Origin: Proales similis
Lineage: Eukaryota; Rotifera; Eurotatoria; Ploima; Proalidae
Direction of reading: 5' to 3'
Length of the DNA: 64,000 nt
Assembly (NCBI GenBank): GCA_019059635.1
Contig: JAGVRJ010000005.1
Coordinates: 186,001-250,000 of the forward strand
The notes under the pieces were generated by a model that was not told the DNA's origin, did not search any database, and saw nothing but the letters and a program-made list of their open reading frames with translations. Positions 17,793 to 45,786 of this stretch are shown here, piece by piece (position 1 is the stretch's first letter; every line of letters begins with the position of its first letter). Made by a program: the position numbers and the translations under genes.

Positions 17793-20700
17793 CTAGTTCT
17801 CCTTGGCTGCGGTCTTTTCCACCCAGAGTTCGAGTTTAGCGTCCATGAACTAGAAAGAGCAAACGGTCAGAGAAGCTCGATGGCCAGAGCGCAAAGAAGA
17901 AATTACCTCAAAGCTCTTGGACTTGACCTTCAGACTCAAGCCGTCCTGGTAGGGTCTGAATGGTTTCTTGACGTTCGTCTCCAAGTATTCGATCGACTCG
18001 CTGATCAGATTGGCCAGTTTTCCCTCGCTCGGCTCAGTTCGGTAGTAGACGACTATTTCATCGGTGGGCACGATCTTGAGCTCTTTGCGCAAACGCTGGA
18101 TGCGATTGACAACGTCGCGGAGGACGCCCTCTTTCACCATCTCCTCGTCAGGCGTGGTGTCGAGCAGCACGATCACACTCTCGTCAAAGTCGGCTTCGTA
18201 TTGACTGAACTGGGCCGACGATTTAGGCAAGATTTTCACGTCTTCGAGCAGCAGCTCGTAGCCGTCCAGATCGAAGCGGCCGGCGTTGCGCAGCTGCTGC
18301 ACTTGGTCGTCGGTCAGCTTTTCAATTTTGCCGTTCAGGGTTTTGACTTGGTCCTTGGCCTTGGTGCCGAGCACCTGGAAGTTGGTCTTGGCCTTCAGCT
18401 CTATTCCGTACTCGCTCTTGTTCTTGGTGATCTTGATCTCCTTCACGTTGAGCTCTTCGTAGATGTAAGGCTTCACTTTTCCTATCGCAGTCTGCATCTG
18501 ATCGGCCTCGTCGATGATTATGACCAGCTCTCGGATCGGATGGCGTAGCGGAATCGTTTTGCGGTCTCGGATTATTCGGCCCAAGTTAATCACGCGCTGC
18601 ATGAGTCCGACGAGATTCTCCACGTCCAAGTCGATAAGAGTCTCGTTCACGTCCGGCACCATGTGGAAGTGAATGCTCTTGAACTCTTCCTTGTCGCCGG
18701 CCTCGGATATGTGCGCTCGCATGCGCTGGTACATCGACTCGGTGAGGAAGGGCACGAACGGCGCGCACAGACGAATCATTTGGTAGAGAACGTTGAAAAG
18801 CGTGTTCAAGGACGCCTGTGCCTCCTCGTCGCCGTTCTCGCCGCGCAAACGTCGCCGGTTGAGTCGCACGTACCAGTTGCACAGAGTGTCGATGAACTTT
18901 ACCAGACGAGGCAGGACAGTGTAGAGTTTGTACTGGTCCATTTCGCTCCTGACGAACTTGAGCAGAGTCTGAATGGAGGAGAGTAGCCACTTGTCCATGA
19001 TGTTGTCGCCGTTGTAGACGCTGATCGGCTCGTAGAAGAACTTGCGGCCCACACGCTCTTCGAACGCTTCGATGTTCTGCAGCAAGAACTTGAGCGCATT
19101 GAACCAGGGCAAGAAGGCGTCCTTGATCACGTCCTTGACGCCCGACTCGTTGAACTTGAGCGAGTCGCCTCTAACCGCCGGCGAGGTGATCAAGTACAAG
19201 CGGATGCTGTCTGCGCCGTACTTGCTCAATATCTCGACCGGGTCCGGATAGTTCTTCTTTCGCTTGCTCATCTTTTGTCCGTCGCTGGCCAGCACCAGGC
19301 CGTTCGTGATCAGGTTCTTGAACGGCGGCTTGTCGAACAGGGCCGTTGAAATGACGAGCAGAGTGTAGAACCAGCCTCGGGTCTGGTCGATGCCCTCCGC
19401 AATGAAATCGGCCGGAAAGTTCTCCTCGAACTCTTGCTTCCTCTCGAACGGGTAGTGCACTTGAGCGTAGGGCATGCTGCCCGACTCGAACCAGCAGTCG
19501 AACACCTCGGACACTCGACGCAGCTCTCCTTTGCCCTTCTTGGACGGGATCGTTATCTTGTCCACGTGGTGCTTGTGAATGTCGGTGATTCCTTTCACTG
19601 AGCTCAGCTCTTCAAGCTCGGCGATGCTTCCCACGCACACGACCTCTTCAAAGTCGTCAGAGACCCAGAGCGGAATCGGATTGCCCCAGTAGCGGTTGCG
19701 ACTGATGGCCCAGTCGCGCGCATCGCTCAGCCAGTTGGCGAATCGTTTCTCTTTGGCAAACTCGGGCACCCAGTACGTTTGGCTGTTGTTGGCCAACAGT
19801 TTGTCTTTGAAGTCTTCGACCTTGACAAACCAGCTGGGCACTGCTTTGTAGAGGAGTGGCGTGTCCGATCGCCAGCAGAACGGATACTGATGCTCAATGG
19901 TCGCCTGAGAGTAGAGTCGCTTCTTGTCCTTCAAACACTTGGTGATGTTCTTGTCTGCGTCTTTGACGTATTGGCCGACAAAGTCGCTCACTGGCTCGAC
20001 AAATCGACCCGACGGATCGATAGGACACACAATTGGCCCAGTTTTGGTTATGATTCCGGCCGCGATGCAGACTCGGTTGTCGTCCTCGCCAAAGTACGGA
20101 GCCTGGTGGACTATGCCGGTGCCGCTCTCGCTCGTCACATACGTGTCGTTCAGCACCTTGAACCCTTTGTCTCCGACCAAGTCCGAGAAGTAGTCGAACA
20201 AGGGCCGGTATCTCTGTCCCAAGTACTCTGAGCCTTTCTTCTTTTCCAGAATTTCGTAGTCCTCAGGCGACTTGTACATGGCGCCAAGACGAGCCTCCAT
20301 GAGAACAAAGTTCTGGTTCTCTCGCGTCTTGTCCTTGATTTTCACATACTCCAAGTCAGGGTGCATGCAAAGAGCGAGATTGCTCGGTAAGGTCCAAGGA
20401 GTGGTGGTCCACGCAAGGAAAGAATAGTCAAGGTCATTGCCGTCGGCAGCCAAGGCCGGAAAGATGACCACCACTGCCGGGTCTTGCACGGTCTTGTAGT
20501 TCTGGCCGGCCTCGAAGTTGGACAGCGGCGTGCAGCACGAGGTGGAAAACGGCATGACCTTGAAGCCTCTGTAGACGAGGCCCTTGTCAAACAGCTGCTT
20601 GAACACCCACCAGACAGACTCCATGAACCAGGGATAAAGAGTCTTGTAGTCATTTTTAAAGTCAATCCATCGGCCCAGTCGACCGATGATTTCCTCCCAT

Positions 20701-21113
20701 TCGTTTGAATAACGCATCACTATGCTGCGGCATTCTTCGTTGTAGGCCTCGACGCCCATCTTGGCCACATCCTCGGGTCCTTTGATTCCCAGTTTCTGAT
20801 CTATTTCGAACTCGACCGGAAGACCGTGACAATCCCAGCCGAAGCGTCGCTCCACGTGATGGCCAGTCTGCGAGGCCCATCTGGTCACTGTGTCCTTGAT
20901 CGTGCCCGCCAGAATGTGGCCGTAATGAGGAAGACCGGTGGCAAACGGCGGCCCGTCGTAGAATGTGTAGCGCTTTCTACCTTCGGACAGCCGGAGTTGA
21001 GTCTGAAATGCGTCAATCTCCTTCCAGTATTGAAGGATGCGCTCTTCTTCTTTGGAAAAGTCGAATCGCTCCGATGAATCGGCCTCGTTCAGTTTGGCTT
21101 CGGTCATTTTCAC
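17793..21113 (-). CDS. IARS1: Isoleucyl-tRNA synthetase, cytoplasmic
   Basis: This class I enzyme charges tRNA-Ile with isoleucine using ATP and has an editing domain for valine. A 3.2 kb exon (21113-17907) plus a last exon (17849-17793) after a 57 nt intron give about 1087 residues. The HIGH motif appears as HYGH near residues 63-66 within PPFATGLPHYGHILAG. The KMSKS loop appears as KMSKRKKNYPDP near residue 610. The CP1 editing insertion (TTPWTLPSNLALCMHPD) and the tRNA-binding helical part (LCNWYVRLNRRRLRG) are present. It has no targeting peptide, and the sequence is of the eukaryotic cytosolic type. It is shorter than the vertebrate enzyme (about 1260) and lacks the extra C-terminal repeats that join it to the multisynthetase complex there; yeast length is close to this. 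The start could also be the second Met, at residue 3. Confidence 0.96.
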
Positions 21114-21435: not shown

Positions 21436-24400
21436 TCATCGGCTATCACTCATTTCACTTATTAAACGTTTTGCAACAGCATTGGCCCGAGCTTTTTCTA
21501 TCCTGAAATCATAATATAGTAATTTACTATCCTCACTTTCGGATTCAGACTCGGATTCAGGTATTGCTGATGTATGATTTTGACCACCCGTCATATTTTG
21601 AAAACTATTATATTTATTTTTGATATTTTGTATCAATGGTTCAAACAAATCTGAATATTTCTGATTCCTATAAGTATAGAACACTTTTATATCTTTATCT
21701 GGTGTTTTCTCCCATTTTTTTTTTCTTTTAAGCTGATCGATTTTGGAGGTAAGTTGTTTTTCTTCCAGAAAATTTCCTTCGAAATCTTTGGTATTCGTAA
21801 AATAACTATTTTTATTTTGATTGGCCTGATTAGCGAGGAAAAGGAGGCACGCGAATAAGCTCGGCTTTTGCGGGTCATCTAGCTCAAGAGGTCCATAAAC
21901 ATTGAGAATATGCTTTTTTTTCACATTCGAGTATTCAAACTCAAGGAACCAAGTTTTAAGAAGAGAGCTCAAGACTCCCCACTTTTTTCCCTTCAAAAAC
22001 ATGTAATAAGCGGTTTGCAAGATTCCTGGCATCCTATTTGTCTGAGGGTCTGTCTTGCCAGAAGAAGGCAGTTTGATTTCAATCACAAACTGATGATCGT
22101 CGCTATTTGGCGTCGCATCGCAGCATTCAAAATCAGGGGCGAGTGAATTTAACTTCATTAATAAATAGTCATTTCTTTCAAGTCCTTGAATACCTTGTCC
22201 TCTTCTGATCGAATAATTCTGGTAAACTCCGCCAATAAACTTGAATATGTCGTTCATGTTGGAGGCAATGTGCATCTGGAAAAGAGTCTGAATGTCATGT
22301 TCGGAGTGAATCTGTGTGTTCAGATCGAATTTGAGTAAACTGTCTGGCATTAATTCGCCTTTTATCTCATTTATAAATTCATCTTTAAAAGTTGATTGAT
22401 CATTATTCCAGAACTTTCCGAGAAAATACGTGATTTCTATGGGTTCAATTCCAATACTTTTGTTCTCAAATAAATCTTCAAAAAAGCCAAAGTATTTGCT
22501 TTTAGAATTATCGCTTTTCTTGGTAATGTGTATTTCTGTTCTCGGACTCAGGAACACTGGATGCATCAGCATGTTAAACAGCTTGTGATAAATTGATTAA
22601 GAGGCAGATGATAGAAAAGTTGTGAGATTGGCACTTACAATTACTCGCCGCCTCCATTTATTAATAAAAGTGATGCGATTTTTGAAATGTTTTTCGTACG
22701 TGTCTCGGTCGGTGTAGGTAAACAGAATGCAGTCGTTCATCCTGGCGTGGTCATATTTCGAGATCTAATGGTCAGAATGTTAGAACAACAAGAACTGGAT
22801 AAAAAGCAAATCGTCTACAAACCCAGGGCTCCACTTTGTCCAGAGGAAGAATTTTTCCGGGTTTGGATGGGTCGATGCACGGAATGGCGTGAACTCGAGC
22901 AAACTGATCCCAAAACATAAAAACTTTCACTTTTTTTGGTTGTGTCTTAAAAACGTGTTCGACTTGATTTTGAAGCAGTGACTGAAATTTCTCTAGCTTC
23001 GCACTGTCGCTGAAGTCACCGAACAAATCAACTGCACAAATGCACTTGTACAAATTTCTTGTTTCGATATTTCTTGTTTCGATATTTCTTGTTTCGATAT
23101 TTCTTTGGATATTTCTTGTTTCGATATTTTCGTCACTAGATCTATCCATGTACATCAACTCAATGCAAGCCACGGTGGGATGTTTGTAGACCTGGCGCCA
23201 CATGTATTTGCGATGTTCGTAAAACTGCTCGAGATTGTTGATTGTCTTTTTCTTTGCGAAAAGTGAGAAATTCGAATCAACACTTGATGGCGAAATAACC
23301 AACTTACGTCGTATTGGATGGCTATTACGAGATTTCCTAAGTTTTCCTTAAAGATTTTGCAATTCTTGTAGAATCGTGGCCACTCGAAGTTGAGCTTCTT
23401 GCCGCAGTAGAACGAGTCACGCATGAGATAGTCTACTCGAGTGGCGTCTACTTTCATGTTGTCGTTGCGGATTATCTTTGCAATTCGTTATTTACCTCAA
23501 CTTGATGTTGCAATTAAAGCAGATGTACTCACCTCAGCTAAACAATGGACTTCTTTTTGCAACTCAGTTTCCCTTTTCTTTGGTTTTTGCGCTATGGCTT
23601 GAAGAATTGCGGATGCAAGAACAAATTTAGGCAAGTGTTCATCTATAGATTTACTCTCCACCAAACCTAACTCTCTTTTATACTTTTTGTTTTGATTATT
23701 TATATAATTGAATATTTTGCCAATATTTGTCTTTCTGGTGCCTACAATCTGCCCAAGATTTTCACAAGTTTCTTTAAATAGCGTTTCTTCTGTAATTTCT
23801 TCTCCTTGACTTTGACAGTTAATTAGCTCAAATATAACTGCACCGAATAAATGGCAGTGAACATTAGGATCCACATAAGGAGGGTTATCCTTCATCTTGT
23901 TAATACGGTCAACATTCTTCATCTTGTCAATACGGTCAAAATTTTCTTTGCCAAGTTGAGAGCAAAGCGCGGCCATTTGAACGCCCAGAACAATATCATT
24001 TACTGTGTATTTATTTTTTAGGTTCGCCAGTTCATTGAATCCGTTCTTCTCAATAAGTAGCTCTCGGGCCATTTGGCCTGCAAGATGCGCAATGCTAAAA
24101 TGAAAGCAGAATTGAATTGTACAAGATTCAAGAACAAGATTCAATACAACGGACTCACCCAATCGAGTGCTCAAACACGGTATGCGTAGCTGAAGGAAAA
24201 ACATACTCGAGTGGAAAGAGTTGCTTCACATCTCTCAGACGCTGGAAAACGGGCGTGTCAATAACGGTCCACAAAATGTCGTCGAGTTCTATCTGCCCAT
24301 GAACCGGGTCAAACACGCTTCTCTTTTTCTCCTCTTTTTTCTTCTCGTTTTTCTTCTCTTTGTTGGCGGAGGCTAAGGAACCCGTTGGAACACCAAAAGA

Positions 24401-24475
24401 CGCTCTGGATAAAGGTTCTTCAACCTTCCTGGGTTTTTTGGAAGGTGAAGGTTCGGAATCAGAATGTTGGTTCAT
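21436..24475 (-). CDS. SAMHD1-like degenerate HD domain fused to a PD-(D/E)XK nuclease-like domain
   Basis: Six exons join in phase: 24475-24159, 24094-23533, 23475-23308, 23251-22823, 22764-22639 and 22581-21436, giving about 915 residues. Residues ~1-52 are a Lys/Glu-rich leader. Then comes SAMHD1-family sequence: [31 protein letters not shown] and [13 protein letters not shown]1 hydrolyses dNTPs using His167, His206-Asp207 and Asp311. Here the first His is kept, but the HD dyad reads SQ ([12 protein letters not shown]) and Asp311 reads Thr ([12 protein letters not shown]), so metal binding should fail. The middle (~residues 145-285) is unrelated to SAMHD1. Exon 6 carries APDFECC...[10 protein letters not shown] (P-D and E-x-K, about residues 683-704) followed by [19 protein letters not shown], which fits the PD-(D/E)XK fold with a RecB-like QxxxY helix. 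The predicted nuclease site is complete; its activity is inferred. The DNA is AT-rich relative to its neighbours. Confidence 0.78.
23053..23131. repeat. 15 bp tandem repeat inside the SAMHD1-like gene
   Basis: An in-frame 15-base unit encodes the pentapeptide N-I-E-T-R about four times, with one unit shortened to NIQR. The paralogue at 43720-45786 has non-repetitive sequence in the same place, so the expansion is local and recent. Confidence 0.85.
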
Positions 24476-43719: not shown

Positions 43720-45786
43720 TCAACCAAAGAAAAGAGCTCTCACCATTGGCTGTTCGTTTAGGTTTTTAACTCGATCATTTTCGAAACATTTTAAATTATC
43801 CAGATTTAAAAAAGTCTTTTTGTCGGTTTTATATTCTATGCCATCGATGTCGAAATTTTCCGCCTCTTGAAGTTCGATATCCAAAGAAGCCAGACTTTTG
43901 TAAATCTTTCTTTGGCGAATTTCAGCAATCTTATCTTGCCGCTGAACTTCATTTTGAGCCTCTGCAAGCATAATCTCAATGCAGGCAACCTTGGGATGCT
44001 TGTAAATCTGGCGCCACATGTACCTGCGATGTTCGTAAAACTGCTCGAGATTGGTGATTGCCTTTTTCTTTGAGAAAAGTGAGAAATTCGAATCAACACT
44101 TGCCAGCGAAATAACCAGCTTACGTCGGATTGGATGGCTATTACGAAATTTCCTTGACTTGATCCAGCCACGTTATCTAGTCCAGCAACAGTTGTGGAAA
44201 TATTTGAAAAACAAAGAAGAAAAGTGAAGGAAACCTTTTAAAATTTTGCAATTCCTGTAGAATCGCGGCCACTCGAAGTTGAGCTTCTTGCCGCAGTAGA
44301 ACGAGTCACGCATGAGATAGTCTACGCGAGTGGCGTCTACTTTCATGTCGTCGTTGCGTACTATCTTCAATTTGAAAGCTTATAGTCGTTTTCATTCTAG
44401 AAAGAGGATTAAATACAACTTACTTGAGATAGGCATTTAATTTCATTCAAAAGAGCTTGATCCATGTTATTTTGACGACCAGCGAGAAAATTAAGAACCT
44501 CGAAGGAAATATTGAAAATTTTAGCATGTTGAAACTCGGAATTGACCTCGTCCAATGAATTTAATAATTCTTGCGCTATTGGCTCGTTTTCAATGCTTGA
44601 ACCATCTTGGTCGCTGTTTGTTACCGATTCGGAAAATATTCTTTTCAAATTCTGAAATTTTTCCTCAAGTCCTTGGATATTTGTTTTAATAAGGTTAAAT
44701 GATCCGATGAGTTCTTTTAACAAGTTTTCTAGCTCTTTGTATCTTCCTTTTAGATTTTCTTTAAGCCTAGTTAATTTCCCTTGAGAAAATTTCTCTTCGA
44801 TAATTTTTTCCAGAACATTATCTATCAGATTGATTGCTTGTTTAAATGATTCTCTAGCCTTATTAGCTGCATCAAAAGTTAGGTTTCGACCAACGCTACG
44901 AGCCAAGAAACTAAGAAGTTCAGAGGCAGTATTGCAAATTTTCAAGTACTGTTGATTTGCATTATGATGATCATTCTCAGGTTCGGAATTGACCTCGTCC
45001 AATGAATTTAATAATTCTTGCGCTATTGGCTCGTTTTCAATGCTTGAACCATCTTGGTCGCTGTTTGTTACCAAGGTGTTGTTAGCACTTCTGAAATTTT
45101 GAATTTCTTTAATAAGTTTTATGAGCTCGTTAACCAAGTTTTCTAGGTCTTTGTGTCTTCCTTTTAGATTTCCTTTAAGCTTAGTTAATTTCTCTTCAAA
45201 ATACTTCACTTGTATAATTTTTTCCAGAACATAATCTGTAAGATTGATCGCTTGTTTAAATGATTCTTCTGCAGCAGAGGTTGCAGAATCAATCACAGAA
45301 GTTAAAAGTTTAATAAATTTGTCGATATTTTTTGATCTGGAATCGATTTTTTCAATACGGTCAAACTCTTCTTTGCCAAGTTGAGAGCAAAGCGCGGCCA
45401 TTTGAACACTGAGAACAATATCATTTCTCGTGTATTGATGACTTTTTAGGTTCGTCAGTTGATCGAATCCATTCTTCTCAACAAGTAGCTCTCGGACCAT
45501 TTGGCCTGCAAGATGCGCAATCCTGAAACGAAAGCAAAATTGAATTGATCTTACAGCCAGATTCAATATAACAGACTCACCCAATCGAGTGTTCAAACAC
45601 AGTATGCGTGGCTGAAGGAAAGACATACTCGAGCGGAAAGAGTTGTTTTACTCTCCTGAGACGCTGGAAAACGGGCGTGTCAATAAGAGTCCACAAAATG
45701 TCGTCGAGTTCTATCTGCCCATGAACCGGGTCAAACACGCTTCTCTTTCTCTTGAGTGAGGAACCCGATGAATCAGCAGTAGGCAT
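43720..45786 (-). CDS. SAMHD1-like paralogue with degenerate HD domain and coiled-coil insert, no nuclease
   Basis: Five exons join in phase: 45786-45581, 45522-44424, 44364-44235, 44152-44124 and 44067 on, ending at a stop at 43720 if the last GT (43743) is not used; about 603 residues. The start ([32 protein letters not shown]) and the later segment ([40 protein letters not shown]) are almost the same as in the gene at 21436-24475. As there, the HD dyad is SQ and the Asp311 position is Thr, so it should not bind metal or cut dNTPs. Between these parts lie ~330 residues of Leu/Lys/Glu-rich predicted coiled coil in two tandem copies. It has one intron more than gene A, within NCKILK|GNF. The C-terminus is unrelated to gene A and lacks the PD-(D/E)XK domain. 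It may be truncated or decaying, though all frames are open. Confidence 0.72.
44537..45072. repeat. 447 bp in-frame tandem duplication in SAMHD1-like gene B
   Basis: An ~88 bp segment starting CGGAATTGACCTCGTCC at 44537 recurs base for base at 44984, 447 bp (149 codons) away. The flanking coiled-coil sequence (SFKQAINL..., LKGRYKELENL) is also repeated but more diverged, so the true repeat units extend beyond these limits, to about 45290. Confidence 0.85.

Follow-up and report, generated by a model that had tools for sequence, protein, structure and literature searches.

Results

A six-exon gene on the minus strand

The window analysed here is a stretch of 64,000 nucleotides from the genome of Proales similis, a tiny marine monogonont rotifer. 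Within it, six exons on the minus strand (24475..21436) join into a frame of 915 residues (2748 nt) without an internal stop. An earlier note on this DNA had proposed such a join with all phases intact, and this is borne out, the same order and intron sites being found in the copy at C1 as well. The features needed below are these:

Exon 1, 24159..24475, minus strand: Lys/Arg-rich N terminus, then the start of the pseudo-HD region, with the equivalents of SAMHD1 D137, Q142, R145 and H167
Exon 2, 23533..24094, minus strand: HD region, with H206 replaced by S and D207 by Q, and a divergent insert
Exon 3, 23308..23475, minus strand: SAMHD1 block, with D311 replaced by T and the equivalents of Y315 and D319 kept
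Exon 4, 22823..23251, minus strand: SAMHD1 helix block, an IETRN-type repeat, then a poorly aligning C-lobe
Exon 5, 22639..22764, minus strand: last SAMHD1-like helix, read by eye
Exon 6, 21436..22581, minus strand: 381-residue C-terminal region with a PD-(D/E)XK-like core and a Ser/Glu-rich tail
PD of the nuclease signature, 22132..22137, minus strand: exon 6 residues 149-150, protein residues 683-684
EIK of the nuclease signature, 22072..22080, minus strand: exon 6 residues 168-170, protein residues 702-704
HD-only copy in the window, 43720..45786, minus strand: exons at about 45786-45581, 45522-44424, from 44364, and 44067-43720

All five introns are GT-AG, with lengths in order of 64, 57, 56, 58 and 57 bp and phases of 2, 0, 0, 0 and 0. 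Their donors read GTGAGT, GTGAGT, GTAAGT, GTTTGT and GTAAGT, and the acceptors are TAG at introns 1 and 4 and AAG at introns 2, 3 and 5. The frame of exon 6 spans 381 codons; in 500 simulated sequences of 3300 bases drawn from a first-order Markov model, no open frame reached that length, the longest having 235. A Lys/Arg-rich stretch of 10 residues at the N terminus presumably resembles a nuclear localisation signal. Short in-frame repeats, the IETRN units, lie in the HD half at about 23045-23130.

On one side the gene adjoins an ORF of 1085 codons (17850-21107) that we take to be isoleucyl-tRNA synthetase, and the ORFs on its other side presumably encode a PFKFB-type enzyme. GC3 is 0.415 in the fusion gene versus 0.747 in the next gene, and lies at 0.66-0.75 in the 7 other ATG-started window ORFs of at least 300 codons. 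Horizontal transfer was considered on the strength of this low value and rejected because GC3 in the genome's canonical SAMHD1 is lower still, at 0.339; the canonical gene (L020) and three relatives (the window gene, L016 and L017) span 0.34-0.53.

The N-terminal half is a SAMHD1 derivative with lost metal ligands

Judged from its sequence, the N-terminal half of the fusion protein is a descendant of SAMHD1. Among PDB sequences, phmmer matched SAMHD1 to residues 53-159 and 286-386 (best E 2.8e-25), and the window protein is 30% identical to the genome's own canonical SAMHD1. The canonical gene carries the full HD motif and matches PDB SAMHD1 at E 2.2e-107, with its N-terminal exons omitted from the splice. 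An intron at EHxIG, in phase 2, is common to the canonical and fusion genes, and intron 4, before exon 5, appears to share both place and phase with an intron of the canonical gene. The Pfam HD model found no match in the 915-residue protein and also missed the locus in a genome scan, and no SAM domain was found in the protein with Pfam at E up to 10. The C-lobe aligns poorly (32 aligned columns only in the profile alignment to SAMHD1, probability 2.1, E 0.023), so the R451 equivalent was not located, and for exon 5 homology is judged from intron position and by eye.

In alignment, H167 (human numbering) is the only one of the four metal ligands to be kept, with H206, D207 and D311 replaced by S, Q and T; exon 2 reads ALCSQLGKE versus ALCHDLGHG in the canonical protein. 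Since three of the four ligands are lost, dNTP hydrolysis is almost certainly impossible, and the half would thus almost certainly be without dNTPase activity. The earlier suggestion of a pseudo-HD of SAMHD1 type therefore holds, with similarity that is clear in two stretches. The guanine-pocket residues D137, Q142 and R145 are all kept. At what we take to be SAMHD1 site A2 (N119 and D330), N119 is replaced by F and D330 by E, and R333 is kept. The tetramer-interface residues D361, H364 and R372 are changed. Exon 4 keeps the equivalents of K354, N358, R366, Y374 and H376 in alignment; the last four are also kept in the HD-only neighbour and the C1 copy, and K354 in those two and in an HD-only copy at C10. 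Beyond the guanine pocket, several of the residues retained by the window protein thus correspond to ones facing nucleotides or oligonucleotides in the human enzyme.

The roles in SAMHD1 of the HD motif, of the A1 residues D137, Q142, R145 and R451, of R333, and of D361, H364 and R372 are as given in the available parts of PMC7045340 and PMC7854603. According to the available parts of the latter, oligonucleotides occupy the allosteric sites of SAMHD1, with guanine in the D137/Q142/R145/R451 pocket and a backbone contact made by H376; the D311A change leaves this binding unaffected, and the oligonucleotide-bound protein sediments close to a dimer (PMC7854603).

The C-terminal domain resembles PD-(D/E)XK nucleases

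The signature APDF...EIK...LQTAYY lies in exon 6 as the earlier note had it, giving the motif order PD...ExK...QxxxY. P149, D150 and E168 are invariant in the three aligned copies of the domain. The PD letters are identical in all four copies (window, C1, C10 and C8), and at ExK the E is present in all four and the K in three, C10 having T; the C8 piece carries the same PDF...EIK as other copies. Beyond weak rows, no family match was found for the domain in Pfam, NCBIfam or PADLOC. The weak Pfam rows (Peptidase_M64, E 0.075 and 0.023; Pallilysin, 0.19; Flexi_CP_N, 0.075) and a CFAP36 row among PDB sequences (E 0.084) were taken as chance. Scans with two short peptide patterns gave 185 pattern stretches in viral contigs and 116 in prokaryote genome contigs, among which no relative of the domain was confirmed.

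Prediction with AlphaFold2 gave a pLDDT of 32 for the whole of window exon 6 with three sequences. For the 194-residue core of the C1 sister, with an alignment of six rows from four loci, the best model reached pLDDT 57.8 and pTM 0.54, the four others having pLDDT of 43-48. This best model runs through a helix (22-40), strands at 46-49, 65-68 (PDF) and 76-80 (EIK), a helix (98-107) and a strand (112-116), followed by two strands and a helix. If an additional short strand ahead of the motif is left uncounted, this modest model has a helix-strand-strand-strand-helix-strand order, which is that of helices and strands in PD-(D/E)XK proteins.

Foldseek searches of the C1 core against the PDB returned 376 matches at E up to 10 and none at 0.001. 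The first five rows were Hjc, Hjc, PBP-related factor A, DrdV and YaeQ (E 0.03-0.24, query TM 0.16-0.33, probability 0.07 for the fifth), all of which we take to be PD-(D/E)XK proteins, and HincII and HsdR were also among the rows. By our assignment, half of the first 20 rows are such proteins (10 rows representing 7 entries), and the other 10 carry other names. Against viral models there were 889 matches and none at 0.001; the first five rows had no informative name, and rank 6 was a type I restriction R N-terminal protein, rank 9 a YqaJ exonuclease and rank 14 a nuclease. As a control, the pLDDT-32 model of exon 6 gave 8 PDB matches, all at E above 3 and none of them PD-(D/E)XK. A PD-(D/E)XK fold is thus probable, though not proven. 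Of the nuclease domain first proposed, the motif is kept and the order of elements in the C1 model fits, while a family profile match is lacking and structural scores are weak; the structure prediction suggested at that time was poor for window exon 6 and modest for the C1 core.

A family of fused and HD-only copies

The whole-genome search covered 15 contigs (32,716,893 bases), with match counts that are lower bounds. Patterns for telomere repeats had no match, a result of little weight since the scan passes over simple repeats. The window protein gave at least 22 matches: at least 5 in its own gene, 4 in the HD-only window copy (C5:229942-231753), 4 in the fused C1 copy, 3 each in a fused and an HD-only copy at C10, 1 at C8, and 2 within the canonical gene (C2). 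With the exon 6 domain as query and E up to 10, at least 4 matches were obtained; they lie on four contigs, in every case behind exons of the pseudo-HD. Queries with the C1 and C10 versions of the domain yielded at least 5 and at least 6, all at the same four places. Searches with these three queries did not find the domain on its own.

The C1 copy (L016) splices to 1054 residues without a stop, with five introns at the window gene's sites and one more in exon 4. Its HD half carries in-frame E/D-rich repeat units (at about 2820-3030 of L016) that differ from the IETRN units of the window gene. The fused C10 copy is readable in two stretches only, with T at the catalytic K and the guanine pocket lost, and about 5 kb from it (L018, C10:1173500-1179500) lies the HD-only C10 copy, which keeps D137, Q142 and R145 and has Y in place of H167. 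At C8 (L019, C8:1363500-1369500) the copy is fused, has lost the guanine pocket and matched in one HD exon at 35.8 bits; frame breaks in its nuclease-like exon suggest either that the gene is decaying or that the assembly is wrong here. D137, Q142 and R145 are thus all kept in four of the six tabulated non-canonical copies: the window gene, the HD-only window copy, C1 and the HD-only C10 copy. No counterpart of exon 6 was found at the HD-only window copy at E up to 10. Exon 2 of that copy contains an internal duplication, with 90 nt identical (44536-44625 and 44983-45072) and 147 nt at 86% identity (44707-44853 and 45121-45267).

Constraint was gauged by differences at codon positions 1, 2 and 3 rather than by formal dN/dS. 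In the C-terminal core these were 0.41, 0.34 and 0.56 between window and C1 (169 codons), 0.45, 0.36 and 0.61 between window and C10 (166 codons), and 0.37, 0.30 and 0.64 between C1 and C10 (181 codons). Between the window gene and the HD-only window copy they were 0.04, 0.02 and 0.20 in exon 1 (55 codons) and 0.09, 0.07 and 0.17 in exon 3 (46 codons). Differences are most frequent at position 3, which suggests that both halves of the predicted protein are under constraint.

Discussion

We tentatively propose, with slightly less than even confidence, that the pseudo-SAMHD1 half senses a guanine nucleotide or nucleic acid and controls the attached PD-(D/E)XK nuclease, perhaps in defence. We infer this function from a single genomic frame, the loss of metal ligands, the residues that are kept and the constraint on both halves. 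In this scheme, the N-terminal half would bind GTP, dGTP or guanine-containing single-stranded nucleic acid, and binding would position or switch on the C-terminal domain, which would then cut DNA or RNA, using its PD and ExK residues to hold a metal. Because tetramer-interface residues are changed, we find it easier to picture a dimer with bound oligonucleotide than the dNTP tetramer. The protein may be nuclear. We favour defence, directed at nucleic acid that is foreign or mobile, over other settings, given the rapid turnover of copies and inserts; this is the weakest step. A broader version, in which a dead SAMHD1 guanine pocket switches on a covalently attached nuclease throughout an animal ‘sense and cut’ family that evolved in rotifers and diversifies like an immune gene, seems to us rather doubtful. 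The sensing and cutting defence protein suggested at the outset is accordingly a plausible reading, alongside which a role in genome maintenance is likewise possible.

Genome maintenance is the main rival to defence because of the dNTPase-independent partnership of SAMHD1 with MRE11 and CtIP (PMC9640623, in its available parts). Here the pseudo-SAMHD1 half would act as a recruiter where DNA is broken or forks have stalled, with the nuclease half performing the resection for which human SAMHD1 relies on MRE11 and CtIP, and there would be no role in defence. In the available parts of the same source, human SAMHD1 acts in resection through CtIP and MRE11 independently of its dNTPase, and the state of K354 affects ssDNA binding (PMC9640623). 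The fusion protein has a Lys/Arg-rich N terminus, and the K354 equivalent is kept in it, in the HD-only window copy, at C1 and in the HD-only C10 copy. Against this stand the divergent inserts, internal duplication and copy-number change in the family, which are atypical of a conserved repair factor, and we regard maintenance as unlikely. A protein with both halves catalytically dead, acting as a scaffold or decoy either by binding nucleic acid or by pairing with true SAMHD1 to tune it, is less probable again. It would accommodate the lost HD ligands, the C10 copy without the ExK lysine and the existence of HD-only copies, but the window, C1 and readable C8 copies all retain PD and ExK despite identities of only ~33-55% between copies, and the differences from the canonical protein at the tetramer interface disfavour co-assembly with it.

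Two further explanations appear very improbable. The earlier note had also raised a domesticated mobile-element product, and a mobile element, domesticated or still selfish, would agree with the presence of copies on several contigs; PD-(D/E)XK domains do occur in mobile elements. This origin is not supported so far: the copies are multi-exon, with introns at shared sites, one of which is common to true SAMHD1, the genome searches found no solitary C-terminal domain, the domain had no family match in Pfam, NCBIfam or PADLOC, and the two-pattern scans of viral and prokaryote contigs confirmed no relative. The remaining explanation, given the same very low weight, is that two adjacent genes have been read as one. 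The fourth codon of exon 6 is an ATG whose M is conserved, which would allow a separate gene of 378 codons, and the join is a prediction from genomic sequence. Yet F2 and N3, just upstream of this ATG, are invariant in all three aligned copies and present in C8, the same adjacency and an acceptor before FNML recur in the window, C1 and C10, and all four C-terminal copies found lie behind pseudo-HD exons.

If the sensing and cutting reading is true, the gene would supply an animal protein for nucleotide- or nucleic-acid-triggered cutting, and the order of pseudo-SAMHD1 and PD-(D/E)XK would be, to our knowledge, a new animal architecture for it. The fusion protein would also offer a clean test of the SAMHD1 guanine pocket without catalysis. 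We found no report of a SAMHD1-nuclease fusion in the open-licence literature, where searches on SAMHD1 in rotifers or an inactive SAMHD1 paralogue gave only unrelated work, as judged by titles and the starts of abstracts.

Compared with known systems, the fusion protein shares with SAMHD1 two matching stretches, the guanine-pocket residues D137, Q142 and R145, and the EHxIG intron site in phase 2, to which reading by eye adds a second site. It differs in the loss of three of the four metal ligands, in its inserts and altered tetramer interface, in having no recognised SAM domain and in its extra C-terminal domain. That domain resembles Hjc, PBP-related factor A, DrdV, YaeQ, HincII and HsdR, which we assign to the PD-(D/E)XK superfamily, in the element order of the C1 model and in PD...ExK...QxxxY; unlike known nucleases of this class, it has no library sequence match and weak structural scores, and it is fused to a pseudo-HD. 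MRE11 is a phosphoesterase, and the nuclease-like part described here, probably of another fold class, lies in the same chain as the SAMHD1-derived half, unlike the pairing of SAMHD1 with MRE11 and CtIP in resection. What the two arrangements would have in common is a SAMHD1 fold alongside a nuclease, with no need for dNTPase activity, as that pairing is presented in the available parts of PMC9640623.
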